Below are positions 1 to 21,026 of a stretch of 24,930 bases of DNA, piece by piece. The stretch is from Cylindrobasidium torrendii FP15055 ss-10 (Eukaryota > Basidiomycota > Agaricomycetes > Agaricales > Physalacriaceae). The notes below the pieces were generated by a model. The model was given only the letters and a program-made list of their open reading frames with translations, did no database searches and had not been told where the DNA came from. A program made the position numbers and the translations under genes. The stretch is from the NCBI GenBank assembly GCA_000934385.1, contig KN880747.1:1-24930 (forward strand), written 5' to 3'. Position 1 is the first letter of the stretch. Each line of letters starts with the position of its first letter.

Positions 1-968
1 TTACTGCACCATAATGGGGTCCATGATAAGGCGCGTAAAATGAATATGTTAGTCAAACCATTATATTACCATCGAAGGTAACGGATGGGCGGTGAATGGG
101 ATAGATGATGATAGATGGTATTCATTGTAATGTCCTGACACGCTTATGGGAACCCATGATAATCGACCAAGGTTTTTCGCGATGGACAAACTGTCTTGCT
201 AGGTCCGGCTATTACACACAGTCATCGCCGTCGACGGTACGTAGCGCTGGGGGGCGCTATCAGTTGCTACCATACTCAAAGGGACTGTTTCCTTTCTTAA
301 TTATCAACTGCAGCCTACAGGTGGCCAACCGACGAAGAGATGGCGTATGAGTAGAAGTCAAAACTTAAACGAAAGCCGCATTTTGCAGAGTCCATTATTG
401 TGGACGTTCCGTTTCGAAATGTTATGACAATGTGTACACTGTACTGTGCTTGGCCAGATTTTCAACAAGTCAGACGTAAATGGAACCGTTTGCAGGTATG
501 AGGGCCGCGCCGAAGGCGCATGCCATGCACAATCAGCAACTTTGACCAAGGTAGTCTACCATATGAGCTCAGACTCAGTACCTTGTCCTGGCCTTCACCT
601 GGTGCGCGCGCATAATCTTGCATAACCCGCAGGAGGCAGGTAGAGTGCGCAGTAAGTCGGACCACCGCAGTCGCGTGCAGGAGGGCTGAGGAGGCTCCGA
701 GGATAAGTGGGGAAGTGTGTTGGTGTTAACTGAATGGCTCTGAGTCTAGAGCAGCACGAATTTGCACGCAGCCGAAGTGCAAAGAAGCCACCTGGCCACC
801 CCAAATTTAAGCGCGCGAAGCACTGCAGCAGTATAAAGAGCCAGGAAGTCGTTGGATAACTCATCAAATCCCCAACCATCTGCTCCAGAGCCACTGTACT
901 CACATCGACGTGAGAGCAGTCCCTGAAGCCGATGGTATGGCGTTGCTGAGCGCTATTCTAGGATCATA
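1..968. other. Upstream region without a supported gene
   Basis: I see no convincing gene here. Open frames are short, lack splice-compatible partners and resemble no family I know. The last 140 bases look like the promoter and leader of the next gene, with a TATA box at 832-837. A GTGAG donor at 910 and a TTCTAG acceptor ending at 961 would make a 52-nt intron in the leader, seven bases before the start codon; this is a guess from the motifs. Confidence 0.5.
832..837 (+). promoter_or_regulatory. TATA box of the first IFI6/ISG12-like gene
   Basis: TATAAA lies 132 bases before the ATG at 969. The spacing fits a leader of about 100 bases. Seen in sequence; use as a promoter is inferred. Confidence 0.45.
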
Positions 969-1524
969 ATGAGCGCCGTTGCCCCTCAGAATCCCAAAAA
1001 CCCGGCCAAGTTTATTCATATGCTCCTCAACGGGGCGAACGCAGGCCAGCTCGCTGGTCGTCTCCTTCAAATTGCGGGCACGCTTGCGAATGCGCGCATC
1101 TACGCACGGTACTTACTGGAGTTACTCAAGCGCCGCGATGTTCAAGAAAAAATCTTCGAGTACACCTTATACGCAGTGGTTGTCGGTGGATGTATTGCCC
1201 TTTTGGTTAATCCTGTTGGTTTGGCTGGCTTTGGCGCTGGAGGAATTGTTGCAGGTGAGCGACGAGTTCTGAACTATGACAAAGATACGCGCTGAAGAGA
1301 TTGGAATAGGGTCTGCCGCTGCTGCGATGCAAGCAACTATTGGGAACGTCGTAGCGGGTTCTCTGTTCGCCGGCCTCACGTCGTTCGGTATGACGCTGGC
1401 GCCGGTCTTGCTTCCCGCAATTGGCGCGACCATGCTGACAGCACTGGGAGTGTCCAAGGCAGGCGCAATCGCATCGAGGGCGCGCCAGTTCGGAGGGTGG
1501 GTCAGGGGAAAATTCGGCCGGTAG
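969..1524 (+). CDS. IFI6/ISG12 (interferon-induced 6-16) family-like membrane protein, copy 1
   Basis: Two exons, 969-1254 and 1310-1524, encode 166 residues. The 55-nt phase-1 intron has a GTGAGC donor and an AATAG acceptor. The N-terminal 60 residues are helical and mildly basic. A hydrophobic segment at about 64-82 leads into the Gly-rich motif NPVGLAGFGAGGIVAG (81-96), followed by IGNVVAGSLFAG and a second hydrophobic stretch to about 142; the tail is basic. This pattern matches the 6-16/ISG12 family, whose animal members sit in mitochondrial or ER membranes and affect apoptosis; a role in fungi is unknown to me. A related gene at 20459-19867 (-) shares the core motif and exact intron position, which supports the model. 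The ATG is the first in frame after a TATA box. Family is inferred from motif pattern; function is not established. Confidence 0.8.
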
Positions 1525-2051
1525 ATTATGTAGAAGAATTTTTTTGTGGCGTACGCCGGGGCGTCGCTTGGATATTCTGTATCATTCCGTCGTTATTCCG
1601 CTGTCAGCTGGTCAAATGTATTATGCGGTCATGACTTTAGGGTGGGAAAGAGAAATATCTTAGAGTGCAGGCGGGACGGCGGGAGGACGTCGTCCAGAGC
1701 AAGGCCGATCTTCGGCCTCACAGCAGCCTCATGTGTGGTCACGAGCACAACGAGGCGGGTCAGAGGGCGCTCCGCACTGGCCGAGTTGGGAAATCCCGGC
1801 AAAACTTGACGGCGGATCAAATCGGCACCGCATGGCATAGCCAGATCGAGGGCGGGGTTTCAATTTTCTCTCAGCTCTTCCTCCCACCACCAAGTCAGCA
1901 CACCGACGACTGCCGCCTCTAGCGCTCGCCGCCTTCTTTGTGAGTTTTACTCCCGATAATCGACAATCAAATCTACCTCGCTGTCGGCGATTTATCTCTG
2001 CGCACATTTTTTGCGATTTTGTTGCACATTTCTCATTTTCTCGGCGTTATC
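1525..2051. other. Intergenic region and leader of the bZIP gene
   Basis: No gene is supported. From about 1860 the sequence becomes pyrimidine-rich, typical of a fungal core promoter or leader. A strong donor motif GTGAGT at 1940 pairs plausibly with the acceptor TATTGCAG ending at 2094. If used, that intron would remove the ATG at 2052 and force translation of the bZIP to start further downstream. Confidence 0.45.
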
Positions 2052-3395
2052 ATGGCATCATCGCTTTCGGCGAATTTCCTTTCTGCTATTGCAGACCTTT
2101 CTCCCGTCGTCGGAGGGCTGAATCGCAGTTCCTTCGACGGCGGTGCTATATGCCCGCCGAGCGATCCATTGTTGACACTGCCAACGAGCGGAGCGCTAAC
2201 TGCATACCCCAGTCCTAGGTCGCCCTTCCAGCCGCCTACTGTCCCGGACCATACGAATACCTCTTCACAAGCGCGCAAATATGTCCGCTTAAATTCGTGT
2301 CGTTCGTCGTTACCCCGTCGCCATGTTCAGTCGACAAACTCTGAAAGTCCGCTTTCGAACTCTTCCTACAACCATGTCTCCTTGAATAACTTTCGACTCG
2401 CCTCCCGCCATGGCATTCCCCTCGACTTCCCAGAACCTCCCAGTACCCGCCCACGCAACAACCCTTTGTCTTCAAATCAGCCCGTCCTTTCGCATTTCAA
2501 ATTGACCCTTGCTTCTATGGTATCATCATCCGCTTCTCGTAATCCGACCGCCGACAAGCACACCGAAAATATGACAGCGCCAACTCCAACCTCGGCCGAC
2601 CTGACCTCGCCCATGTTCAGCGACCTCGGCGACGACTTCCTCATGTCGCCCCCGAACGAGTTCTTGACCTCTCCGGTCTTCAGCTCGTACGGGGACTTCT
2701 CAGACGGTTCTCCGTATGAGACGCCGCTCGATAGCTTCCTCACAACTCCCGTCTTTCAAGACATCCATGAGCCCCTCATTGCCGGAGAGCACGACTATCC
2801 TCTCGATCTCTTCGGCGGCCATGATCTCCTTCTGCCCCTCCAACAGGAGCAGAAGTTGCCTACGTCCATCGACCCAACATCTCTCATCGCTCCGCGGTTG
2901 CCACCTTCGCCGCCGGAGATGTCTTCGCCCCTCGCAATGTCGCCTGCTCCCGCAGCGACACCTGCTCCTAAAACACGCAAGCCTCGCAAGCCGTCAGCCG
3001 TGACTGGTACCCGCAAGAATATCAGTCCGGAGACGATGGTTTCGATGGAAGCGCCGACTCAGACGCGCAAGTATCAAGCACCTTCGGCAACGTCGCGTAA
3101 GGAACTTCCCGCGACGTTCCTCAAGAAGAAGCGTGCCCGGTCTGAGGCGTTTGGAGACGACGATGAACCCGAGGAGATCCTTCCTCCCAACGCGACGGAG
3201 ATGGAGCAGATCGAATTCAAGCGTCGCCAGAACACGCTGGCGGCGCGGAAGAGCAGGAAGAGGAAGCTCGAACACCAGCGAGGTCTCGAGACCCAGCTTG
3301 AGGAACTTCGGGCGCAGCTGACGCACTGGAAGACGCGTGCGGAGTTGTCCGAAGGTGTGCTCAAGGAAAAAGGCCTGTCTGTGCCATCGGCGTGA
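2052..3395 (+). CDS. Gcn4/Cpc1-like bZIP transcription factor
   Basis: A single open frame encodes up to 447 residues. The C-terminus (383-447) is a bZIP: basic region QNTLAARKSRKRK fits the NxxAAxxSR signature, followed by a leucine zipper. This arrangement, with the bZIP at the extreme end, is that of Gcn4/Cpc1, the activator of amino-acid biosynthesis genes. Residues 174-280 hold repeated acidic SP/TP-F motifs (LTSPMF, LTSPVF, LTTPVF), a likely activation domain; 290-375 is Pro/Lys/Arg-rich linker. The ATG at 2052 has a strong context (A at -3, G at +4), but residues 1-155 are Ser/Pro/Asn-rich and look unlike the rest. ATGs at 2517 (residue 156) or 2571 (residue 174, A at -3) may be the true start, giving 292 or 274 residues, with the region before them acting as a regulatory leader. 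Identification as bZIP is firm; Gcn4 orthology is likely; the start is uncertain. Confidence 0.85.
   Translation: MASSLSANFLSAIADLSPVVGGLNRSSFDGGAICPPSDPLLTLPTSGALTAYPSPRSPFQPPTVPDHTNTSSQARKYVRLNSCRSSLPRRHVQSTNSESPLSNSSYNHVSLNNFRLASRHGIPLDFPEPPSTRPRNNPLSSNQPVLSHFKLTLASMVSSSASRNPTADKHTENMTAPTPTSADLTSPMFSDLGDDFLMSPPNEFLTSPVFSSYGDFSDGSPYETPLDSFLTTPVFQDIHEPLIAGEHDYPLDLFGGHDLLLPLQQEQKLPTSIDPTSLIAPRLPPSPPEMSSPLAMSPAPAATPAPKTRKPRKPSAVTGTRKNISPETMVSMEAPTQTRKYQAPSATSRKELPATFLKKKRARSEAFGDDDEPEEILPPNATEMEQIEFKRRQNTLAARKSRKRKLEHQRGLETQLEELRAQLTHWKTRAELSEGVLKEKGLSVPSA
2150..2505 (+). promoter_or_regulatory. Candidate cluster of upstream ORFs in the bZIP leader
   Basis: If the bZIP starts at 2517 or 2571, four short out-of-frame ATG-initiated ORFs precede it: 2150-2218 (22 codons), 2281-2292 (3 codons), 2323-2385 (20 codons) and 2410-2505 (31 codons, in the strong context CCGCCATGG). 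Gcn4/Cpc1 genes are classically controlled by such uORFs, which delay reinitiation until amino acids run short. Against this, the main frame is also open through the whole region. The ORFs are seen; the regulatory role is inferred. Confidence 0.4.
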
Positions 3396-5605: not shown

Positions 5606-6991
5606 TCAATACACAAGTGCGGCTCCGGTGGCTGGCGTCCAAGATTGCTGCTCGAGCGGATTCGGCATGTCAAAGTTCATAAACTCGTTCATGAAGGGCT
5701 CCGTAACACCGTCGAACTCGAACTCAAACGTGTTGGTCTCGTTCGCGAAGAAGTCATCAAACGACGGTGGGGGAGGAACATCCGAAGGAGCGAAAGCCTG
5801 GTTCTCGTAAACCCGATGCCGCTCGAACGCCTGCTGCTGTTGTTGCTCGTAGTATCTTTCCTGCGCATACTCCTGATTGACGATGCTGGCGTACGCCGGC
5901 GTTGACTGGTCATAAACTGGGCCTTGCTGGTAGGTCTGCTGCGGATCGATGGCGCCACTACCAGCGTCGACGAGTTCAGGATTGTAGAACATGTCGTTTG
6001 AGTAGTAGGACTCTGTTGGGCCATCGATGGGAGACGACTCGTACGTGGGAGAGGCAGGACTAGAGGGGTACGGAGATGATGGAGCAACAGAGGCTGATCT
6101 GGGATCGTACGGAGGACTGGACGCAGCGTAATACGAGCCGTCCGGCGACTCTGGATAGTACATTTGCTGCTCAGCGACCTCTACGGCTTTTTCATCCACC
6201 TGGAAGTGGTCGAACGACATTACCAGCTGACCGACGCCGCCCTGCAAAGATAAGTGAGTACGGAAACAATGCCACTAGAATGGAAAGCAGAAGAGGCGTA
6301 CCGGTGTGGCTTTGGCGTTAATCTTGGCCTTGCGGGGCTTGGCTGACTTCCTGGTGGACGGCTTATGCTCGTACGCGTCCTGGGTGACGGGGGTATCAAA
6401 ACGGGTCATGAACTTTTTGGCATGTGTGCGGTCGAACTCGCGCATGATCGTCTCCAGTTCCGGGCCTTGGATGCCCTCGACAAGGAGCTCGGCAATCTTC
6501 TTGCTACGCGCTTTGTCCTTGGGCTCGACGGCGCGTTTGCGCTTGGTGGGCAGCGCAGCGGTGGCGGCGGCGATGGCCAGATCGACATCTTCACCCTCGG
6601 CGATGGCGGCCTCGGCGGCGGCCAACGCAGCCTTTGCGGCAGGACTGGTCTGCGTAGGACGAAAGGCATACTTGGGATAGAGTCGACGATGTTCTTCAAG
6701 CGCAACTTTGGCCCGATCCTGCCAGAACGATCGGTCTCCTGCGCTGAGTCCCTTCCAAGTCATGCCAATGATCTGGCTGAGAGTACTGTGGTTGGTTTCG
6801 ACGTCGAGAGAGATAGCCTGGTTGCGGATGAACGAAGAGCGGAACAAAATGAACGCGTTCGGAGGGCGGGGGATATGGCTGGGACCCTTCTTCCTTGTCT
6901 GTTTAGGTGCCTTTGCCGCCTTTGCCTCTTTCTCAGCCTGAGAATTGGGAAGAGTCCAGACGACGGTTTCGTGAGAGCGAACGGGGGCCAT
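5606..6991 (-). CDS. HMG-box transcription factor
   Basis: Two exons, 6991-6302 and 6241-5606, encode 441 residues; the 60-nt phase-0 intron has a GTACGC donor and a CTTTGCAG acceptor. Residues 40-110 form a single HMG box of the sequence-specific (SRY/MATA_HMG) type: it opens IPRPPNAFILFR, has the conserved W79 and W90 of the helices, and ends RLYPKYAFRP. A Lys-rich stretch precedes it (21-36). Residues 118-150 are an Ala-rich segment, then a KRKR nuclear-localisation-like cluster. The C-terminal half is Ser/Pro/Tyr-rich with a Q-run (QQQQQ) and an acidic Phe-rich end (FDDFFANETNTFEFEF), typical of an activation domain. Such fungal HMG factors regulate mating and fruiting genes, but nothing nearby identifies this as a mating-type locus. 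The start is the ATG at 6991; an upstream in-frame TTG is not a plausible start. The family is firm, the specific role unknown. Confidence 0.88.
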
Positions 6992-8843
6992 GGCAGCGAC
7001 AGACAAAAGTACAAGAACGAAAGAATGAGAGAGAGAAAAGTAATGGGCGGGGACAAGCGGAAGAGGGCGAAGAAACAGAAGACATGTGGGGGGACTTTAT
7101 GTATCGGCGATGAGCCAATAAGGGACCACGAGAAAGCCTGGGTCACCGTGTCGTCCTCGGTGGCTATCATTCATCTCAGCAACCTTGCATCCCCTTCAGG
7201 CAACCGGGTAGATGCAGGGCAGGAGGGTCTATTCAACACCTATTCAGTCCGGCAGAGTTAGCTATGATAAGCGAACGCTTCACACCATTCATCACCATTC
7301 ATTCCACCTGCCCGCCGCCCGCCAGCGCCTCTGAATCAGGCTCTCCCCGATCGTGCATCGCGCCTCCCGACGCCTGCATCGATGCCTCCACGGAATCAAA
7401 TCACGGAATCAGGCGAAAAAGGAAATATACTTGCTCACAGTCCACGGAGGCAAATTTCTTCATTGATCACACGCGGCAGGGTCGTTCAATACTGTTCAAT
7501 AATATACGGCAAATTCCTCGGCGGCAGCAAAGCTGACCTTCGCGACCTCGAGCGCCCGACGCGCTCCCAAGCCGCATGCGGGCCCGGATATCCATTTCCT
7601 GCGCATTTTATAAATTCATTTTATTCTCCTCATCCAAGGAAACACAATCGTCACCGCGGACGTATCCACGCATTGGGCAGAAAATCATTGTTCTGAATGC
7701 GGTTAGAAAACGCCACGTCTATGGATAACGCACGGTCGCATGGGTCTGGGGTCTCCCAAGATCGTGCCCCGGCCTATGCCTCCCAGCGTCGTTTCTCCCT
7801 TGTTATTTCTTCTGATGGCGAAGTCAAGAAACACCACAAAACTTGGGAAAGGGCCGGCGATGCAAAAAGGGATGCGCCTGCTCGGGGCTCAACGTGACCT
7901 GAGAATACGACGGTCTGCCGAATCGTGTACGATTCAGAACCCATATCGTTCTCCAAGTGGGGAGCGCTTGTGTGTCCTCATTTATCGAGCTCTCTTCTGC
8001 CATTTCTCTATCACATCACTCACTTGTAAGATCACATGCCCCCACAGGAACATGGAAGCGCACTTGCTGGGACGATTCCCCTCCACCATCCACACTTCAT
8101 CTAGGAGCGTCGGCCACTCGGTGACGGTGCGTACGCAGCCGGTGTTCGACACTTGTTCGACACACGAAAATCACTGGAAATTCAATTTTCCCTCAATTGA
8201 AGCCCACCCCGATTTCCTGTGGAACAACTTATCGCGGGTCATTACGTGCGACAAGCTTGTGCTTGGGCCCATAGACGACCTGTCAATCTGGAGTTCAAAC
8301 CGAGTCAGAGTCAGCTGGGATGGTCAGCCTCGAAGGGAGCGGCATGAGGATCGCATAGTCTCATTGTCGCCGCCAGAGGCAATGCAGAGAACAATGAGGC
8401 TCAGGCGTCGGCATTGTCATATTCCCTGCGCGCGTCACTGGTCAGCCACACCGGATAAGCGTGGGAAAGAGATCTATGTGATCTCCTCAAGATCTGGTCC
8501 CTTCCGCCTTCTTGTCAAGTCCGGACTCACCGCTGTGTGGGTACTTGACAACTGAGCAACCAGATGTTGAGTTCAGTTAGGCAGTACGGATCGTCACACG
8601 TGAGGGCGCAGGCGCCGACTATCTAGATCTGTGAGCCTAAGCTGAAGCTTTCGGACACGACTTGACTTTTCATTATACTCTTGAATGCGTCGGGTGCGCC
8701 TCCGTTCCCGACACAGGACGGCACCGATTTTGCGTTTCGGGGGCGCAAATCACTGTTCCGCGCCTCAAGGCCTCCCACCTTGTTTCTCCCTCTTTTCGAG
8801 GCCATGGTGGCCGACGAGGACCTAACAACCACTGATGTTTATG
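6992..8843. other. Promoter of the HMG-box gene and gene-poor region
   Basis: The first few hundred bases are the upstream region of the minus-strand HMG-box gene. An ATG-started plus-strand frame of 271 codons (7740-8555) is longer than expected by chance, but it has no domain, repeat or codon pattern that I recognise and no clear splice partners, so I do not call it a gene. A plus-strand frame from 8666 runs to the transposon insertion point at 8843. Confidence 0.4.
8839..8843. repeat. Target-site duplication, left copy
   Basis: TTATG directly abuts the left terminal inverted repeat and is matched by TTATG at 13214-13218 directly outside the right one. Five bases alone could be chance; its placement at both exact ends makes it credible. 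Confidence 0.75.
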
Positions 8844-8897
8844 ATGGGTTCCGGCAAGCCCTCTATGATCGACGGGAATGACAAAGCGTGGCGTGCC
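8844..8897 (+). repeat. Left terminal inverted repeat
   Basis: It matches the reverse complement of 13160-13213 at 52 of 54 positions; mismatches fall at repeat positions 19 (T/A) and 51 (T/G). The first 18 and the next 31 comparable bases are identical. Similarity fades after position 54, with a short CGGCA match beyond a 2-nt gap. Confidence 0.92.
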
Positions 8898-8914
8898 GTG
8901 TCGGCAGCGTCGTA

Positions 8915-8937
8915 CCTATCAAAAATGATGTGATAGG
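8915..8937. repeat. Small hairpin just inside the left end
   Basis: CCTATCA (8915-8921) and TGATAGG (8931-8937) form a 7-bp stem with a 9-nt loop, 18 bases inside the left inverted repeat. It could be a subterminal protein-binding site or chance. Confidence 0.4.
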
Positions 8938-9345
8938 TCCCGAAAGCACCGTCGCGTCCTTGTCACTTGAATAGAGAGTCACTATGTACCGATAAAATCG
9001 TAGATTTATTTCTATATGGTATTTACATATCAATAAACGATTTGGTGGTAAGAAATGTTCATGCGACCCAATTTGCGTGAGCAATTCCTCAATCGGCCGG
9101 CAAGCCGGATACCCAGCTTCTATCGAACACTCCGGGCTCTGATGTTGGCCAAAATGGAAATAAATCCACGCTAAGTGTATAAACCTCATAAGTAAAGAGG
9201 AAATGGCTACTTCACAACAAGTATTTGGCTAGACATAATTAAATTGACCGTGCGAAAATGTAGCCAAGTTTGTACTAATTGCTGGTTGCGGCCTCGCCAT
9301 TTCCCCTCCCAACGGGCTATCCGTGAGTGTTTTAGCTTTACCAGC

Positions 9346-12300
9346 ATGAGAAGAAAGACACAGTCTCAAGCACAAGCAGCACACACAATCAAACTCGGGG
9401 AAAACAAGAAAAGGAAACGAGTTGACAGTGGTAAATGACATTCTTTGTGCTTGGAGTACTATGTTCAGCACTCACTAAGACAACCAGACGCAAAGAACGA
9501 TGACAGAAGTCCCTTTCATATCCCAAGTTGCTCAGATCCTGCCGGAAAGGCACTTGCTACCGAGAATTCAGTGAGTATCTTTGGCATAAACCATAACTTG
9601 AACCTTACTCTACATTGCAGTCACTCAAGCAGTCACTTTGCGACGCCCTAAGCCGTATTTCGCATCTCGAATCCAGTCTACTGCGCGCCAAGGACACCGT
9701 TTCTGCTGGGAAGTCAACAATTCGGTCTCTCCAGGACGAAATTTCGACGGTTCGTGGTCGCGAGTCACGGTCCAAACGAGAGCGCAGCACATACCTCGGC
9801 AGAGCAACTACTGCAGAGCGCTCGCTCCAAGCTTACAAGGCCGATAGCGAGCAGAAAATCAAGCAGGCAAGGGAGAAATATGCGATGTCTGAGCTGTCTC
9901 TGCGAGCCTTGGCTCGAGAGAAAGAGATCTTGGACAGTAACTGTGCCCTTGCTATCCAAGAAAGCTCTTCTTCTCGATGATTGTGCGCAAGCTTGGAAGC
10001 GCAGGTCAGCAGCCTACGATATCAGCTTCGAGCATCGTGTGTCGACAACCAGAGGCTGAAGGGGAAGCTGGAGTCGCTGGACAACGACTTGGATACCATT
10101 ATAGCTGTCCTCAAGTCAGAAAGGTCAGCCTCTGCATCCCTCCAGACACAATTGGACGAATTGCGCGGCTTGCTTGCGTGCACTACAACCCAGCTTGCAG
10201 CTGCCAACCTTCGCTATGACACCATGCGTGATACGACAGCCGGTGCACGAGAAATCTATCGAAAACAGGCAGTGAGAGCATCCGAGGCTTCGAAGAGATA
10301 CTCTGACCTGTACAACGGCTTGAAGGAATGGAGGATGCGCGGTCGGGGACCCGGAGGTCCATACACAGAAGAGGTGCGCTGGCTTATGCGACAGCTAGTC
10401 CGTGCTGGTTGTGCCGAGGACAAGGTTGGATTTGCCATCCTCTGTTGCGGGTCTGCATTTGGGATTACCACCCATTCGCTCCCCAGTGCAAGGATGGTTG
10501 GCCGTGCCGTGAGAGAGGGAGGTGCATATGCATCGATGCAGCTAGGATACGAGATATCTCGCTCCAAAGGTAAGATATGTCCTCAAGACTTGCCAATATT
10601 GTTGTCTGACACCCGCTATAGCAATTGGCCTCAGTACGGATGGGACTTCACATCGTGGTATTACCATCGAAGGACGCCATATAACCTTGAAGGCTCCCGA
10701 GTATCGCGACGAAAACGACGACGAAATGCGCTGGGTCACGCGAGCAATTGGAGTTGAGCGTGCCCTTGACCATACGGCGGAGAGGCAGCTCAGAGGCATG
10801 CACAACTCACTGAGTACGATTGCGACGGTGTATTCAGAGAGCCCGCTGGCTGCCATGGAGAACGACAAACTCACCCTTGATGGAGCGATATCAAAGACGA
10901 AATTCGCAAACATGGACCATGCCGCCGATGGGAAGAAATACCATCGCAAATATGGGGCAGGCAAGCGAGATGCGACTGTCCGCGAGTTTGGCCGGCTGAG
11001 ACTCGAAGGCTTATCGGCAGAAGTGTTTGCTCAGGAGATGTGCCGGGTGAAGAGCGAAGACATAGAGGAATTTCTGCCAGGATTGAGCCTGGACACACTG
11101 TCAGTGAATTTTGACACTTTGGTTTGACTACTCACATGATTATAGAAGCAAAGAAGAGCGCGCCAAAGCCACTCTCCTGGTTCTTCGCACACGACTCGGA
11201 GAGCTTGAGTACGATAAACTCGATGGTGACAAGAAGACTTTCGCTGATCTCTTCCTCTTTGGGGGATGTTGTGGTCACAAGGACTTAAACGCGTGCAAGC
11301 GAGGCGGAGAGGGGATGAAGGCGGATTGGAAGAGGAATGACGCGCCAGAGGAGCGTCCCGTGCCGCTTCCGAACAAAGACAAAGATAGCGCGATTGCAGA
11401 AGGGGGGAAAGCGGGGCTAAAGGCATTGCAAAGCAGTGATGGCGGTGGCATCAAATTTACCGAAATATTGGGGCTGCTTTTGCGAGGCAAACCTGGAGGC
11501 AAGCAGGCGTACCAAGATCTGTATAAGTCGTTCATGGTTCGACGTCGTTCCGAGCTATTTGGCCCCAAGTCGCCAGAAGCAAGGTATGATGATCGCAACT
11601 TCCATTGTTCTACACGATCACTGATCGTGTGTTACAGATTCGTCAAAGACTTCCCAAACACGCCTGCGTGCCGCTACCAAAGCCACACATATGCCGCGGT
11701 CGATGCCTTGGAGTGGGGTGACCTCATCAGCGAGCTTGTCCTCGAGGTATGCGCCAAGAAATCTAATTCCGGACACCAGAGTCATCTCGAAAGCAATGTT
11801 CTCAAGGCTTTCAAATGTCGAGCCACTACTGCCGATCTCTGTGTACTTGCACTTTACGGAGTCCTTGTATCTTGGCCTTACCTATCGCTGGTGCGCACCC
11901 CACGGAACGGACAGCCTGTCAACCTTCTCGACCTTGTTGATTTACATCGACAACTTCCCGTACTCTGCATGCGCCTCTCAATCATGTTTTCATCCATATT
12001 TTCAACTCAGAAGCCGGAGGGCGACTTTGAGATGTTCAAGAGTCGCTTTCCTTGGCACGACTTCACTCTTGATGGAAATGCACCTCAGAATCGGCGCGTA
12101 CTCGGGAAGATACTCGACCTGCATCACGAAGGGAAAGTGCCCGGGCTCAGATGGTGTTTCCGATCCTTCTTTCGCCATGCAGCGAAGGGATGGGTCGACT
12201 TTGGCGAAGAGTTCCGTCCTGGCGGTCCCATTGATTCCCTTCCACTCTCTTTGCGCAAGCTCCTCTTCATACCCGCGACTAACGATGCCAATGAAGGGAT

Positions 12301-12945
12301 TCTGGGTGCATGGCGTGTGGCAACACGATTCCAACCCAATATTTCGCCCACCAACTTCACCGCACGGACTACATGCTCCAGAAATGACACAGAGAGCTTT
12401 ATCAAGGCGAAATGTAGTGAAAACGATGCACTCTATGTCCGACAGTACGTACGCGAGATGGATCAGCAACACGAGAACCAGACTTTTGCCGTGGAGTTTG
12501 CGCATGAACAGGCTAGGAAAGCGGCGGCTGGGCAGAAGCGTGCGGACGATATCGCTCAGAAGAAGCGTGATGTCCTGGCGATGCTTGCTGCTCAAGGGCT
12601 GGAGCGGGATGCCAGTGTTGTGTCAAGAATGGCAGTCAAGTCATTGCAGACTCAATTCCGGATTTACAAGCTAATTATCCAGGATCCTATCATCTTGAAG
12701 CTTAAGATCACGAAGCTCAAGAGAGACGAGCTTGTATCTGTGATCTTAGCAGCTCTTGAGCGGTGCACACCTGGGTATGTGCGAATTTTGTCTCATTGTC
12801 AAGTTTATCTAAGGTTCTTAGGCTCGAGGCTGTGGAAATGGAGGATAACGTTGAGGATTCATCTCTATCTGAGAATCCAAACCACGACATGGAGTGTGAT
12901 GAGGACGACACAATGGAAGTGGATAGAGTGGCTTCCTGCAGTTAA
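9346..12945 (+). CDS. Transposase-like coiled-coil protein of the transposon (one in-frame TGA)
   Basis: Seven exons join in phase: 9346-9430, 9488-9570, 9621-10569, 10622-11099, 11146-11583, 11638-12774, 12822-12945, giving 1098 codons with TGA at codon 176 (9978-9980). The N-terminus has a KKRKR cluster; about 57-285 is a long coiled coil; a conserved block follows (VRAGCAEDKVGFAILCCG, then LSTDGTSHRG). Candidate acidic catalytic residues are D379 (in STDGTSH), D578 (in GCCGHKDLN) and E897 (in ATNDANEGILG). The D-to-E gap of about 320 residues would suit an RNase H-like fold with a large insertion. The C-terminal 42 residues are very acidic. From memory it resembles a high-copy uncharacterised protein family of Agaricomycetes; the transposase role is inferred from lying alone between inverted repeats. 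It lacks the motifs I associate with KDZ transposases. Apart from the TGA it appears intact. Confidence 0.75.
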
Positions 12946-13159
12946 CGTAAATGGAACACACATACCGAGGCAGTATGATCATTGTTGCGGATTTCCTACC
13001 ACGAAATACAAGATGTATATATGAGGTACTAGTGTACCAAATTTCAAGAAATTCCGTGGAGAACTCAGCCCATTATCAACTCGTGAACTTCGCGACGATG
13101 AAATCTGTCTTTGTGCGATCAAGTTTGATCCAAAGACGTCATTTTAGCTGATTGCCGCT

Positions 13160-13213
13160 GGCCCGCCACGCTTTGTCATTCCCGTCGATCATAGTGGGCT
13201 TGCCGGAACCCAT
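13160..13213 (-). repeat. Right terminal inverted repeat
   Basis: This is the reverse-complement partner of 8844-8897, ending in GGAACCCAT at 13213, directly before the TTATG duplication. Confidence 0.92.
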
Positions 13214-13218
13214 TTATG
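13214..13218. repeat. Target-site duplication, right copy
   Basis: TTATG lies immediately outside the right inverted repeat, identical to 8839-8843. Confidence 0.75.
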
Positions 13219-13420
13219 AGACCCAACCGCAAGGAGTGCCCCGAATTCACTCAGGCGGTCCGTCTAAAGCCTGGTCTCTGATAGAAGAGGGGATATTCGA
13301 AAAAGTGCGCCATACAATGCGTTGGCTTCGTATGACGATTCAGAAGCAAACGGGCAGAGAAAGACAGCAGTGCATGTTGGTACAAAATACAGATACCCGA
13401 TATCGTCCACATTTCGATCT

Positions 13421-14605: not shown

Positions 14606-15214
14606 TTACTTGGATAAGCTACAGCTACATTCAACCTGGCCACAGGTCGCACGCAGACATGAAAGATACGTATAATGCAGGCCCTGTACTTTTTGCGGAC
14701 TGCAGGAGGCTTCTTTTCGCTCATAACTGGCACGACCAAATACAAAAGCTTAAGCGCTCAGCGCTGAGTGTTAACCACCTCAACGGCTTGACGAAAGTCT
14801 CGCGATTCCAAGCTCTGTATTTCAAGTTAAATATAACGGGTTCAAGTGATTGTTTCAACAAGTAGATAGATGCTTCGTCTGAAAAATCTGAGCGTCTAGT
14901 GGCCGTAGTGCGAAAGTTCTACTAATTGGAAATCGGTAGAAATACATGTCAAGAGCCCTTGCCCAGCCGGATTCAATGCCTTCGCATAATTCCTTTGTCT
15001 AGCGCCTTTAAGTCTCACGTCTCTTGCACCTGTCTTACACGATTTCGAATGGGAGGCGATCACATCACCACTGGCACGTGCAAAGTTGATCCTTTGCTCT
15101 TGACCAACAAGTGCCACTGACCACGTTCGAAAGATTAGCCTGATGCCCACGAGTGTGTCCACTGTAACTTCCCTGTATCGAGCTCATGATGTAACTTAGC
15201 CACCCCTCCTCAAC
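14606..15214. other. Intergenic region and promoter of F-box copy 1
   Basis: No gene is supported. From about 14886 the sequence is a diverged match to 16857 onward, the promoter of F-box copy 2, and marks the left end of the tandem duplication. Confidence 0.55.
15075..15080. promoter_or_regulatory. E-box (CACGTG) upstream of F-box copy 1
   Basis: The palindrome CACGTG is kept in the second unit at 17041-17046, although the surrounding promoter sequence has diverged. Both lie roughly 260 bases before the probable start codon. This suggests a bHLH or bZIP binding site; no direct proof. Confidence 0.35.
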
Positions 15215-15342
15215 ATGCTACCTTTCCCCCATGGTCTCAATCCCCCGACTCTGTGCATCCCATCTTCGGAGACGCCCGTCTGGGTATAGTGCCCTTCGCG
15301 CGCGGGGACGAGCCCAAAGACGATCCTGAACGGGAAAGTCTT

Positions 15343-16679
15343 ATGAAAGAACTAGTGTCTGACTTGCAAGTAGCAACAGTGGAGCTAGACGCACAGGCCA
15401 ATGCACTGCATCATGCCCTTCAGCACATCAACGACCAGCGGAAGCGCTGCAAGAAACTCTTGGGGCAGCGGAATAACATCAATTGTCCAGTGCTATGGGT
15501 TACAGACGATGTCCTCTCCATCATTTTCGATTTTTGTATCGATACTTCGCCCTGGGCCAGGGATATGGCGGTTGACAGTACGCTGCTGACGCTCTCTCAT
15601 GTCTGTGAAAGCGGGCGCAAGATGCTGATCAACTCGTCAGCCTATTGGAAGAATACTGGTGTGACCTTGCAAACCGACCCCCAGCACGATGTCCCCTTAC
15701 CTCTGCTCAACATGTTCCTTGAGCGCGTCGGGCCCCACCCCTTTCCTGTCAGAGTCGTGCCGCGGAAATTGGATGACAATCATAGTACGGCCTTTGGGAA
15801 CTCAGTGCATCTCTGGCGTACGCTCGAGTTGGTGCAGTACAACGGTGCTCTCGAAAGAAGCTTAGGATATTTTGGCTTCCCTCGACTGGCAGGGGCATTA
15901 GAGAAGTTGGATTTCCTGCTCATTACAGACGAGGATGGTGACATGACACGATTCTTCCAACCATTCGAACAGTGCCAAAACCTGCGTGACCTAAAGATAC
16001 GGGTAGTATTTTACATGCCGAGGCTCGCGAAGCTTTCCGTTCCTTCCCCAAACCTAGTTCTCTGGGCTGTTCGGTGTCCGGCGCTCGAAGTACTGGAGCT
16101 AGGGTGTCTTGCCGACTGTGCACCTATCGACGTGTTTCTTGCCCAATCTCGCCCTCCACTTCGAATACTACGCATCGAAACAGATAGACGTATTGTCAAC
16201 AAACTCGGCGATGGAATCAACGAGCTGTGTTCCCATTTTCCCAGTATCGACACGGTGGCATTCATTTCGTATGACCCACAGTCTGAACTGCCCATCTTCC
16301 TTTTGCCTGAACGAGCGCTTCGCCTCTATTACCCAACTGCAAGCACTTTCACCTGGATGTGTATGTAACCATCGCGGAACTATGCGCCCCCGAGTTCTCT
16401 GCTCCCATTCTTGCGTTCATCGATGTCCGTTGGCATGCAGCGGAACGGTATCTTGAATCCGTGACGTTGACTGCAACTGGTGACTCGGAAGACGTGTACG
16501 CTCCAAGAGAAGAGATACGCTCTATGCCATTTCTGGCAGAATTGGGCGCATATCAACGCGAGGGGCTGAAGGTGACGGTGTGCGCAGAACCCGATAGGGA
16601 AGGTCAGTGCTCTCAAGCGTTAGGCAGGGTTAATTCTCACGGTATTGTCACAGGTGGTCTATACTACTATATGTGTTAA
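15343..16679 (+). pseudogene. F-box gene copy 1, disrupted
   Basis: This is the first member of the tandem pair. Its start region (MKELVSDLQ...) is a coiled coil, followed by an F-box-like segment (VTDDVLSIIFDFC, then LTLSHVCESGRKMLINSSAYW), in which the usual W-R of the box is replaced. Compared with copy 2, 79 codons are missing in frame after 16005, removing much of the leucine-rich region. A 1-nt deletion near 16307-16310 then shifts the frame, so the first frame stops at 16368; the homologous reading resumes in another frame from about 16330 (IAELCAPEFSAPILAF) to a stop at 16679. A 51-nt intron-like segment (16603-16653) sits at the same place as in copy 2. One deletion could be an assembly error, but with the lost region a decaying copy is more likely. 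Confidence 0.7.
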
Positions 16680-17173
16680 TGCATAGTGATTATTTTGCCT
16701 TGGCTTTCGTCAAGAAGACTTAGTAGACTCTTGAATAGGAGGACTTACGAGTTCTATGTGGAAAAATTATCGACGCAAGTTATACAACCCATTTTCATAC
16801 TACATTATAGAATAGTTTGGAATTTCTGTGCTCCATTTATTTGTCCATACGAGGCTTCTGAGCGTCCAGCTGTAGCCTTAGTGCAAAAGTCGCCGACATC
16901 CAATTGGCAATTGATAGATTCACTGTGAGCCCTTCGCTTACCCAGGTGCAAACTCGTGCGTCGTAAGGCATGCCTTGTACTTCGTCTAGTGTCTCTCACG
17001 CCTCTTTCGCAATCTCGATTTGGGGATGTGATCAAATCATCACGTGAAAAGTCGATCCCTTGCTCTTAGCCACCAGTGACCAAATTCAAAAGATAGATTT
17101 AATGCCCAAAAGTATGTTCATTATCATTTAATTATGTTGATCTGACGGTATACAATAGCTGCTCATCCTCGAT
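16680..17173. other. Spacer between the tandem F-box copies
   Basis: It holds the 3' flank of copy 1 and, from about 16857, the promoter of copy 2, with the conserved E-box at 17041-17046. No gene is seen. Confidence 0.6.
17041..17046. promoter_or_regulatory. E-box (CACGTG) upstream of F-box copy 2
   Basis: CACGTG at the position equivalent to 15075-15080 in the first unit. Conservation between diverged promoters is the only evidence. Confidence 0.35.
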
Positions 17174-17298
17174 ATGCTACCTTTCCGCCATGGTCACAGT
17201 CCCCTGACAGGCATCCCATCTTCGGAGACGCCCGTCTGGATATAGTGCCCTTCACGCGCGGGGAGGACCCCAGAGACGACCCTGAGCGGGCAAAGATT

Positions 17299-18873
17299 AT
17301 GAGAGAGCTCGTATTCGACTTGAAAGCAGCAAGAGCAGAGCTGGATGTACACGCCAATGCGCTGCGCCGTGCCCTTCGACGTATTGATAACCAGCGGGAG
17401 CTCTGCAAAAAACTCTTGGGAAACCGGAAGCATTCGCCATTACTTTTGGTCCCAGACGACGTCCTCTCCATCATTTTCGATTACTGCATCCAATCTTCGC
17501 CGCCCTGGTCCACAGACACAACTGTCAACGAGGCTCTGCTGACACTCACTCATGTCTGCGCGGGCTGGCGCAGACTATTGATCAACTCCCCGGCGTATTG
17601 GAAAAACACTGGTATTTCCCTGCAAATAGACTCCCAGCACGATTGCACCCTGCCTCTGTTCAACATGTTCCTCGAGCGCGTTGGGTCCCATCCCTTTCCC
17701 GTCCGGATTTTGGTGCAGGAACCCGACCACATCCATACAGCCTTTGGGGAATCAGTACACCTCTGGCGTACGCTGGATTTGACGCAGTATGATGGTGTTC
17801 TCGAGAAAGACTGGGGATATTTTGGCTTTCCTCGACCGGCGAGGGCCTTAGAGAGGTTAGACTTCACGCTCATCTTGATAGAGGGTGGCGATACAGCACG
17901 GTTCTTCCAACCATTCGGACAGTTCCAGAACTTGCGCGACCTAAGAGTCGAGGTATCACTTGCGGATCGTCGCGAAGAAACCATCCCGGGCCCCCCTCGC
18001 GTGGCAGATCTATCGGAGACTGGGTTCCCCTGGGCTCAGCTCACGACATTTCATCTGGAATCCGAGTACCCTGCCAGCGATCTCCTGAGCATTCTGCGCG
18101 CATGCCATGAACTGCAGGAACTTCGACTCGCGACGTTCTGTAATGGCACTGAAGAGTCGGACTGGATACCGGATGAAGACGAGGATGATGGTCCAATCAT
18201 CATGGAGAAGCTTACGAAGCTTACTCTTCCTTCGCAAAATCTAATCCTATGGGCTCTTGAGTGTCCGGTGCTCGAGATTCTCGAGCTAGGGTGTCTCACC
18301 GAGTGTGAGCCCCTTGACGCATTTCTCGATGCATGTTGTCCTCCGCTTCGAATCCTACGCGTTGAATCGGATAGGGGTTTTGTTGCTCAAGCCAGAGAGG
18401 GTAATAGCGACGCCTATCCCAGTATTCCTCAAGTCGAGACATTAATATTCAACTCGTACTTCCCACTGCCGTTCGAACTGCCCGTCTACCTTTCGCCTGG
18501 ACCGACACCTTTGCCTTTATTACCTAGCTGCAGGTACCTCGACCTGAACGTGTGGGGAACAATCGGGGAACTTTGTACGCCCGAGTTCTCTGCTCCCATT
18601 CTCGCGTTCATTGACGCGCGTTGGCATTTGGCGGAGGAGCGGTATCTCGAGTCTGTGACGTTGACCGCGAACGGCGAGGAGCCAAATGTATACGCACCAA
18701 GAGACGAAATATGCTCTATGCCCTTTATACAAGAATTGAGGGCGTATCAGTGCGAGGGGCTGAAGGTGACGGTGTGTGTGCAACCTTTAGGCGAAGGTAG
18801 GTGCTCTCAACCACAGCGAAGCGTTTATTCTCAAAAATTCCTCTCAGGCGACCGATATTATTACATGTGCTAA
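17299..18873 (+). CDS. F-box protein, tandem copy 2
   Basis: The open frame encodes 524 residues, or 507 if the 51-nt segment 18797-18847 (GTAGGT...CTCTCAG) is spliced as an in-frame intron. Residues 1-40 are a coiled coil; about 48-105 is an F-box-like domain (VPDDVLSIIFDYC, VCAGWRRLLINSPAYW), as in many Agaricomycete F-box proteins that recruit substrates to SCF ubiquitin ligases. The remainder has leucine-rich repeat-like units (ALERLDFTLI, ELQELRLATF, VLEILELGCL, PLRILRVESD) and an acidic loop (DEDEDDG). The ATG at 17299 is the first in frame. However, the frame stays open some 120 bases upstream, and its translation there (FPPWSQSPD..HPIFGDARL) is nearly identical to copy 1 despite a 3-nt indel, so an undetected 5' exon with the real start is possible. 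Substrate unknown. Confidence 0.82.
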   Translation: MRELVFDLKAARAELDVHANALRRALRRIDNQRELCKKLLGNRKHSPLLLVPDDVLSIIFDYCIQSSPPWSTDTTVNEALLTLTHVCAGWRRLLINSPAYWKNTGISLQIDSQHDCTLPLFNMFLERVGSHPFPVRILVQEPDHIHTAFGESVHLWRTLDLTQYDGVLEKDWGYFGFPRPARALERLDFTLILIEGGDTARFFQPFGQFQNLRDLRVEVSLADRREETIPGPPRVADLSETGFPWAQLTTFHLESEYPASDLLSILRACHELQELRLATFCNGTEESDWIPDEDEDDGPIIMEKLTKLTLPSQNLILWALECPVLEILELGCLTECEPLDAFLDACCPPLRILRVESDRGFVAQAREGNSDAYPSIPQVETLIFNSYFPLPFELPVYLSPGPTPLPLLPSCRYLDLNVWGTIGELCTPEFSAPILAFIDARWHLAEERYLESVTLTANGEEPNVYAPRDEICSMPFIQELRAYQCEGLKVTVCVQPLGEGRCSQPQRSVYSQKFLSGDRYYYMC

Positions 18874-19866
18874 TGCGCAGCTACTGTGTTCCATTGGCTT
18901 TCATTCTGAAGGCGTAATTGCAGTACATAGTAGACTTTTGAGTTCATATGCAAGTATGTACTCGCTGGTTCTAATCGGGCGCAAAAGATTAGACAACTGC
19001 CCTTCCTGGACTCTGTAAGAGACTCTCGAAATATCGTCATAGGGGTGATCCTCACCTTGGAAGTGTAGCCTCTTGCTGCACGGTGCAATAGTTTATCGAG
19101 ACCGGCCATCATGCCGATGTTTATTTGGTCCGAAGCCTGGCTTACGGTACGCGTCTGCCGCGCGTTGCACCTTGGCTTTCCGCCCCGACGTGAATGGTGA
19201 CCAGAACTTGCTGTGCGTCCTCTGCGTCGCCCACCGCCGCGTGCATCGCTGACATTTGCTCAGCCATTGGAGTGTCTGGACCCTGCGTCGTTCGAGGAGA
19301 CACGCGCAGAGTTGTTGGCCAGGCTTACGGTGCGTTGTTATCGTGCAACCGCCCGCGCCGTCGCTGAACATCACTTGTAGACTCCGTGTTTATATCCTCG
19401 ATGGCCTCCACTGCCGTAGAAGATACCTATGAGCCTCCATCCCGCTCCGGATAAAGAGCATCCCTCGTTAGCACATTTGACGAGGGCTAGCTGGCCAATA
19501 CTGGATGGCATGGAATGTATTCGCTGGTTGCCTACGGAGAGAGGATGGCCCCAGCGCCAGTCGAGTGCGTGCCAGCCTGTTCAGTTTACTTGCATGCTGA
19601 CCATGGTGTAGCCCTCGTGTGTGCGGGATGCCCATTGGGAGTAGTGCCACTGAATTCGACTGGCCACCACCCTGCGGGTATTTGCCTGCGGGGTGGATGT
19701 CAAAATAAAGTAACCCAGGCCAATGTAGTGGAAGCGTACACGATTCCATAGGTCAAGATTGGAAATATGAACACTTTCCACTTCCATGTTATGATTCTCG
19801 AGCTATCGTCCAATAACAACATGTCTATGCATCATTTGCGGAGCAATTTCTACATCTGCTGAGCTA
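18874..19866. other. Intergenic region, possible exon remnant
   Basis: The first 90 bases match the 3' flank of F-box copy 1. Around 19242-19380 there is a branch-point/acceptor pattern (CTGACATTTGCTCAG) followed by a plus-strand frame reading PLECLDPASFEETRAELLARL, which looks exon-like, but I could not connect it to a start or neighbouring exons. It may be a gene remnant. The rest appears empty. Confidence 0.4.
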
Positions 19867-20459
19867 CTAATCCTCTCGCTCCCTCTCTCGGGCTTGCTCC
19901 TCCTCGAGCCACCCCTTGAGTACGGGGTGCGCCATAGCTAGCCCCCAAAGCCCCGCCCCTGCAGCTGGCAGTACGACCGGTGCTGCGGTCATGCCAAATG
20001 CCTGTAAGCCAGCAAAGAGGGAACCAGCAGCGACATTCCCCATGCTCGCCTGCCATAGAGCTGCGAGGGATCCTAGACAGGGTTAAGTCTTCTCACGGCG
20101 CTTTAGGTGCGATTGGGTAACTCACCAGCGACAGGACCAGCCGCTCCAAAGCCTACGAGACCGACGGGGTTCGCGATGAGAATGGCGCCAAGGATGAATA
20201 GCGCGACCTTGGTTGCATCGTTGTTGACGATGTCGACCAGAACCTGGAGGATGCGGTCGCGGAGGTCCTTGCTTTGCAGCATGTGAAGAAATTGGTCGGT
20301 GAATCGACGCAGGTCAGTCATCGTGCCCGAGAACGCAAGGAGTTTGTTGACGATGGGCTCCCATGCGCCGGAGATGTTGAGGTTTTGGACGATGGCGGTG
20401 AGAGCGTCGGCGGTGGGGAAGCTGTCCGAGTTGTGGATTAGTTGATGGTTCTCCGACAT
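19867..20459 (-). CDS. IFI6/ISG12 (interferon-induced 6-16) family-like membrane protein, copy 2
   Basis: Two exons, 20459-20126 and 20072-19867, encode 179 residues; the 53-nt phase-1 intron has a GTGAGT donor and a CTGTCTAG acceptor. The N-terminal 80 residues are soluble and helical. A hydrophobic segment (about 83-97) leads into NPVGLVGFGAAGPVAG (97-112), then MGNVAAGSLFAGLQAFGM and a second hydrophobic stretch to about 160. The C-terminus is highly charged, ending in alternating Glu and Arg. The core and intron position (directly after VAG) are the same as in the gene at 969-1524, so the two are paralogues, but their N-termini and tails differ. Family knowledge points to a small protein of internal membranes, in animals linked to mitochondria and cell death; the fungal role is unknown. 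The start is the first in-frame ATG, 45 bases from a TTAAAAG element. Confidence 0.82.
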
Positions 20460-21026
20460 GGTGCTCGTGGTGAGTGAGAAGAAGGGAGAAAAGGTAGTCG
20501 GCTTTTAAGGGCTTGATGTAGCTCAGCGCCAATTTTTCATGTAACTTTGAGCGTGACATCTTCTGTTGCCAATTTGAGCGGCTAAAGTGAGGCATCCGAC
20601 GATTCAGTAAGTCCAAGTCCAACGAGTCTAGATGATATAGCCCTAGGGTGGTGCTGCATGTAAACCAATAGATGGGCGAGCACATAATAGCAGCTGTTAT
20701 TTCAATCTGGCCGCTCGCGGGCACACCTTCAATTGGAGGACGGACAAAGTCCTCTTCTTTCTCGCATGGTTCGGGTCCACTGACGGCACTAAGTATTCTG
20801 AAGAGACAAGGAGCAGTTGCCGGCGGCACCTGGCGTGCATTGCAGTATCAATGAGCTGCCTCTCCGATGCTACTCGCTCGAATATTACTTGCTTACCAAG
20901 AGACTAGTAAGCCCATTGTTAGGATCTGTTTTGCAGTGTTTACTTGCCTAACATAGGTGTTTTCAGTCTCAATGACTAGCACCTATTGCTCAAAATTCTG
21001 TACCACAATGTACGTCACAAATGCAT
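20460..21026. other. Intergenic region between the IFI6/ISG12-like gene and tRNA-Gln
   Basis: Its left end is the promoter of the minus-strand gene, with a TATA-like TTAAAAG (minus strand) near 20503-20509. I see no gene in the remainder. Confidence 0.5.

Follow-up and report, generated by a model that had tools for sequence, protein, structure and literature searches.

The 24,930-nucleotide stretch of DNA analysed here (the window; contig KN880747.1 of Cylindrobasidium torrendii FP15055 ss-10) contains at positions 8845-13212 a unit organised like a DNA transposon: its inverted ends have the form TGG..CCA, a 7-bp duplication flanks it and a single gene lies inside. There are strong grounds to consider this unit, named element A, a DNA transposon, likely of the cut-and-paste type and moved by its own DDE-type transposase, predicted to be Hermes-like in fold and action. 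The encoded protein belongs to a large mushroom protein family that likely supplies the transposase of a cut-and-paste transposon group not described so far. The features of element A and of its gene model are the following:

8838-8844 (+): left 7-bp target-site duplication TTTATGA, defined as the longest exact flank duplication
8845-8897 (+): left terminal inverted repeat (TIR), 53 nt from TGG; the 54 nt of the first-pass annotation begin one base sooner
9346-9430 (+): exon 1 (model)
9488-9570 (+): exon 2 (model)
9621-10569 (+): exon 3 (model), with a coiled-coil-like stretch and a predicted three-helix, helix-turn-helix (HTH)-like region; holds the TGA at 9978-9980
9978-9980 (+): in-frame TGA, codon 176
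10622-11099 (+): exon 4 (model), where the predicted RNase H core begins
10639-10641 (+): D379 codon, predicted first catalytic Asp (STDGTSH)
10915-10917 (+): D471 codon, predicted second catalytic Asp (NMDHAADGKK), absent from the first-pass annotation
11146-11583 (+): exon 5 (model), with the C(2)H motif GCCGHKDLN and the beginning of the predicted helical insertion
11267-11278 (+): C573-x2-H576 motif
11638-12774 (+): exon 6 (model), with the predicted helical insertion, the helix carrying the predicted catalytic Glu and the C-terminal helices
12293-12295 (+): E897 codon, predicted catalytic Glu (TNDANEGILG)
12822-12945 (+): exon 7 (model), including the stop codon
13160-13212 (-): right TIR, from the inverted-repeat search
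13213-13219 (+): right 7-bp target-site duplication TTTATGA, defined as the longest exact flank duplication

The inverted repeat at 8844-8897 and 13160-13213 (54 nt, 52/54 matching), already described in the first-pass annotation, was recovered as the longest of the whole 24.9-kb window, the runner-up pair being 36 nt long with 72% matching. The longest exact duplication flanking the element, combined with a symmetric shift of the ends, was the 7-bp sequence TTTATGA, which moves both ends one base inward and places the left end, TGGGTTCC, at 8845 and the right end at 13212. A scan for TG..CA ends resulted in the same placement. Requiring an exact 7-bp duplication no more than 2 kb from the gene gave a best end match of 24/25; after first-order Markov shuffling of the flanks (300 shuffles) the end match never exceeded 16/25. 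The proposal of a complete transposon-like unit is supported.

The gene model of element A (7 exons, 1098 codons including the stop) was reproducible, but an in-frame TGA, which the first-pass annotation did not mention, is present at codon 176, so that an intact gene is not supported. Six in-frame GT-AG introns that would splice out this TGA were listed, the most plausible candidate being an intron at 9937-9999 (63 nt, donor GTAACT). The sequence would thus correspond either to a decayed copy or to an 8-exon gene with an unrecognised intron, and its status as a pseudogene is not certain because such introns exist. This copy is probably dead or dependent at present, unless an unseen intron removes the TGA. 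The public protein model (P0001) covers only a downstream part of the gene (641 aa) and is labelled partial.

A protein search of the fungus's own genome revealed on contig C248 a distant relative of the element A protein, with piecewise identities of 26-32%, in a second element, named element B. Its gene has an intact frame (3 exons, 983 aa) and is bounded by perfect inverted repeats (33/33 nt). The element reads TGGTGGTGGG..CCCACCACCA with CTTCTAG on either side as a 7-bp duplication, the maximum, shorter readings of 5 bp and 3 bp also being possible; the TG..CA end scan placed it identically to the longest-duplication reading. Counted from TGG, the inverted ends comprise 53 nt in element A and 31 nt in element B, and none of 300 shuffles equalled the end match of either. 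Terminal inverted repeats and a target-site duplication of one length (7 bp), as expected of TIR-type DNA transposons, were found in both elements (n=2). In a tree of 204 protein rows, from which proteins shorter than 600 aa were excluded, the two elements are 2.99 substitutions per site apart, with element A in a group of 65 rows (support 1.0) and element B in a group of 3 rows (support 0.99). Chance is disfavoured because termini and duplication length agree across this distance. The group descending from the common ancestor of both elements holds 71 of the 204 rows, and the two therefore represent only part of the family. Past TGG the two TIR sequences have little in common. By eye, TGATCG was noticed in both, at positions 22-27 from TGG in element A (8866-8871) and 25-30 in element B (L012:3397-3402); this might reflect a common binding motif or coincidence.

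The proposal that an orphan mushroom protein family is tied to transposon ends gains support from element B, whose independence makes this link more than a one-off. The DNA-level reading covers one fungal genome (29.3-Mb assembly), and its generality rests on these two elements. A DNA search of this assembly in which very common words were skipped yielded no further occurrence of the ends of either element and no MITE-like (miniature inverted-repeat transposable element) or other DNA copies of them; it was the protein search that uncovered element B. The label "high-copy" accordingly does not apply in this genome, where the DNA ends were found once. Three further gene fragments were detected, on contigs C12 (ended by the contig edge), C412 and C132, with no demonstrable end pair for any of them; for the C412 and C132 relics the end-pair search gave only mismatched duplications with 13-14/25 end bases. 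The C12 and C412 fragments (L032, L033) are 90% identical over 1130 aligned DNA columns and, on this sequence comparison, are considered another sub-lineage of the family. Their similarity ends at ..CCA in the BLAST alignment, which would suit a right terminus; this candidate was not counted, GCCAGTACTCA being found again 7 bases on in C412 and no left end having been found.

Three protein searches with a cut-off of E <= 0.001 retrieved 31, 133 and 415 clusters, with at most 120 clusters listed in each and scoring confined each time to the roughly 7,990 candidates that shared most words. Among the matches listed, every named relative is annotated as a hypothetical, uncharacterized or unnamed protein; they come from Mycena, Hypsizygus, Wolfiporia, Trametes, Schizophyllum, Sphaerobolus, Botryobasidium, Suillus and other genera, which we take to be Agaricomycetes; at least 10 clusters come from the single species Mycena galericulata, and many are environmental rows without a name. 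The word "transposase" does not appear in the visible part of the names listed, and the precomputed Pfam annotation of the relatives listed is empty. The listed matches of the Pfam and NCBIfam scans were all of the coiled-coil or chance kind (for the alignment-wide Pfam scans of 31 and of 24 members the lists cover 25 families each, out of 67 and 44, respectively). A sequence search of the family profile against solved structures returned one match, at E 3.2, and no relative was found in scans of viral contigs and of bacterial and archaeal genomes. In the openly searchable literature, outside Repbase and most subscription journals, no earlier description of this family was recognised from titles and the openings of abstracts, so that it may already bear a name.

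Conservation was determined on 106 aligned family proteins out of 132, the other 26 having been excluded beforehand. Three acidic positions are conserved among rows with a residue (D99 in 81/83, D195 in 91/94 and E600 in 98/101), together with a C-x2-H motif (C295 in 104/104 and H298 in 103/104 rows); the equivalents in the window are D379, D471, E897, C573 and H576. The first-pass annotation had proposed D, D and E motifs in STDGTSH, GCCGHKDLN and NDANEGILG. These strings are present and D379 and E897 are indeed conserved, but D578 (alignment position D300) varies, with D in 87 rows, E in 14 and S in 3 out of 104, and for this reason is no catalytic candidate; D471 is the conserved residue. 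Among the 147 proteins (of 235) that fit the search pattern, the second D and the E lie a median of 401 residues apart (range 312-466); the pattern itself limits this range.

Structure prediction yielded the RNase H core that had been envisaged, with D379, D471 and E897 as the putative D, D and E, so that the element encodes, by prediction, a DDE/RNase H transposase. The best fold match of the predicted structure was the hAT transposase Hermes, with a Hermes-like RNase H core and a helical insertion; about 425 mostly helical residues are predicted to separate the second D from the E in the element A protein. The HTH-like label on the three-helix region of exon 3 is our own reading of the model. 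Judged by the predicted fold and the duplication, the element would work like a hAT transposon. Binding of the inverted ends and pairing of the subunits would fall to the HTH-like region, perhaps together with the coiled coils; excision of the element and its joining to staggered target DNA would be carried out by the RNase H core, with D379, D471, E897 and the C-x2-H motif, and the 7-bp duplication would result from repair of the gaps.

Two other readings of the locus were considered. The gene might be a domesticated-transposase host gene lying between chance or unrelated inverted repeats, as could be suggested by the single copy of it in this assembly and by related fragments without ends. 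This is most unlikely, given that two distant elements each carry end repeats, TGG..CCA termini and an exact 7-bp duplication, that shuffling attained neither end match, and that the relics in this genome and the Mycena galericulata clusters suit a mobile family. As for the duplication, the first-pass annotation had set it at 5 bp (TTATG). This pentamer does adjoin the 54-nt repeat outside both ends of element A, where it is the same duplication as TTTATGA read one base further out, and element B is also readable with TTCTA. A length of 5 bp is nevertheless improbable, since both elements have a maximal exact duplication of 7 bp, the TGG start is common to them only under the 7-bp reading, and 5 bp would require two further matching host bases by chance in each.

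Regarding the rank of the group, hAT duplications are usually of 8 bp, with variants of 5, 6 and 7 bp known, and an N-terminal BED zinc finger is common, not universal, in hAT. Element A had been said not to fit hAT, and this holds for sequence models, none of those for hAT (PF05699 and similar) being among the 25 families listed for 31 and for 24 members, a list outside which hits in single members at E above about 0.1 or 0.2 would fall; it does not hold for the predicted fold, which best matches Hermes, nor for the duplication, since 7-bp duplications are reported for hAT7 of rust fungi (Kojima 2025; PMC12730594). The family might thus be a very divergent hAT member, of a 7-bp lineage like hAT7, in need of a family name and not of a superfamily, a reading to which we give a chance somewhat below even. 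The motif order, which resembles that of hAT exons of the same genome, agrees with it. On the other side stand a coiled-coil-like and HTH-like start, with no BED zinc-finger model among the Pfam families listed, long ends starting with TGG, the D-E spacing and a profile probability of 0.1 and 0.3% against the own-genome hAT alignment, a thin profile of 4 rows, most of them trimmed or hand-joined. A new superfamily, restricted to Agaricomycetes across many orders, with TGG..CCA ends, 7-bp duplications and a coiled-coil and HTH-containing DDE transposase sister to hAT, has in our judgement a nearly even chance of being correct. The 7-bp length alone does not define a new group, because Kyakuja and hAT7 also show it, according to PMC12730594.

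Assignment to Kyakuja, of the KDZ elements (Kyakuja, Dileera, Zisupton), is hardly credible. These are also fungal DNA transposons, and Kyakuja makes 7-bp duplications in the same kind of host, Agaricomycetes; two Kyakuja families have CA..TG termini without inverted repeats (PMC12730594), in contrast with the inverted TGG..CCA ends found here. The Glu motifs are loosely alike (TDGEGIERVW vs TNDANEG), and profile comparison with hhalign gave 0.1%. The KDZ model PF18758 is not among the Pfam families listed for family members. In the 29.3-Mb assembly there are at least 9 hAT-domain and at least 39 KDZ matches, some with stops, and none of the latter falls on the five places of this family. Own-genome KDZ proteins lack the large insertion, their conserved D and E (our own reading as second D and catalytic E) lying about 65 residues apart in 5 of 8 loci aligned vs the median of 401 here. 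The P element/THAP9 superfamily would share with this family a coiled coil, an HTH, a split RNase H order, duplications of 7-8 bp and a Glu motif followed by R..P. The family differs in that no Pfam P-element model is among the matches listed. Neither a P-element fold, nor a GTP-binding insertion, nor eukaryotic transposase structures besides Hermes and Mos1 are among the fold matches listed, which does not exclude them. The CMCT group (CACTA/EnSpm, Plavaka, ESTA, Transib) comprises DNA transposons with members in mushrooms; it differs in its duplications of 2-5 bp and mostly CA..TG termini, according to PMC12730594.

If these proteins are transposases, this would bear on how genes are counted, repeats masked and gene-family expansions studied in mushroom genomes, and a new superfamily, if true, would account for hundreds of genes annotated there as "hypothetical protein". 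The ends and the duplication length provide a direct handle for complete elements and short non-autonomous copies, and the intact-frame element B offers a testable enzyme for variation of the hAT-type reaction.

Regarding the neighbourhood of element A, a bZIP protein (1944-3395, +; PF07716, E 3.2e-6) and an HMG-box protein (6275-7096, -; PF00505, E 3.9e-9) are encoded to its left. Two short proteins without a match in the Pfam scan, at 927-1295 (+) and 20103-20504 (-), have in common an NPVGLxGFGAxGxVAGE segment and presumably resemble ISG12/IFI6-type proteins. Finally, the tandem genes at 15190-16722 and 17146-18916, the second without a Pfam match at E 0.01, are 70-80% alike in blocks.
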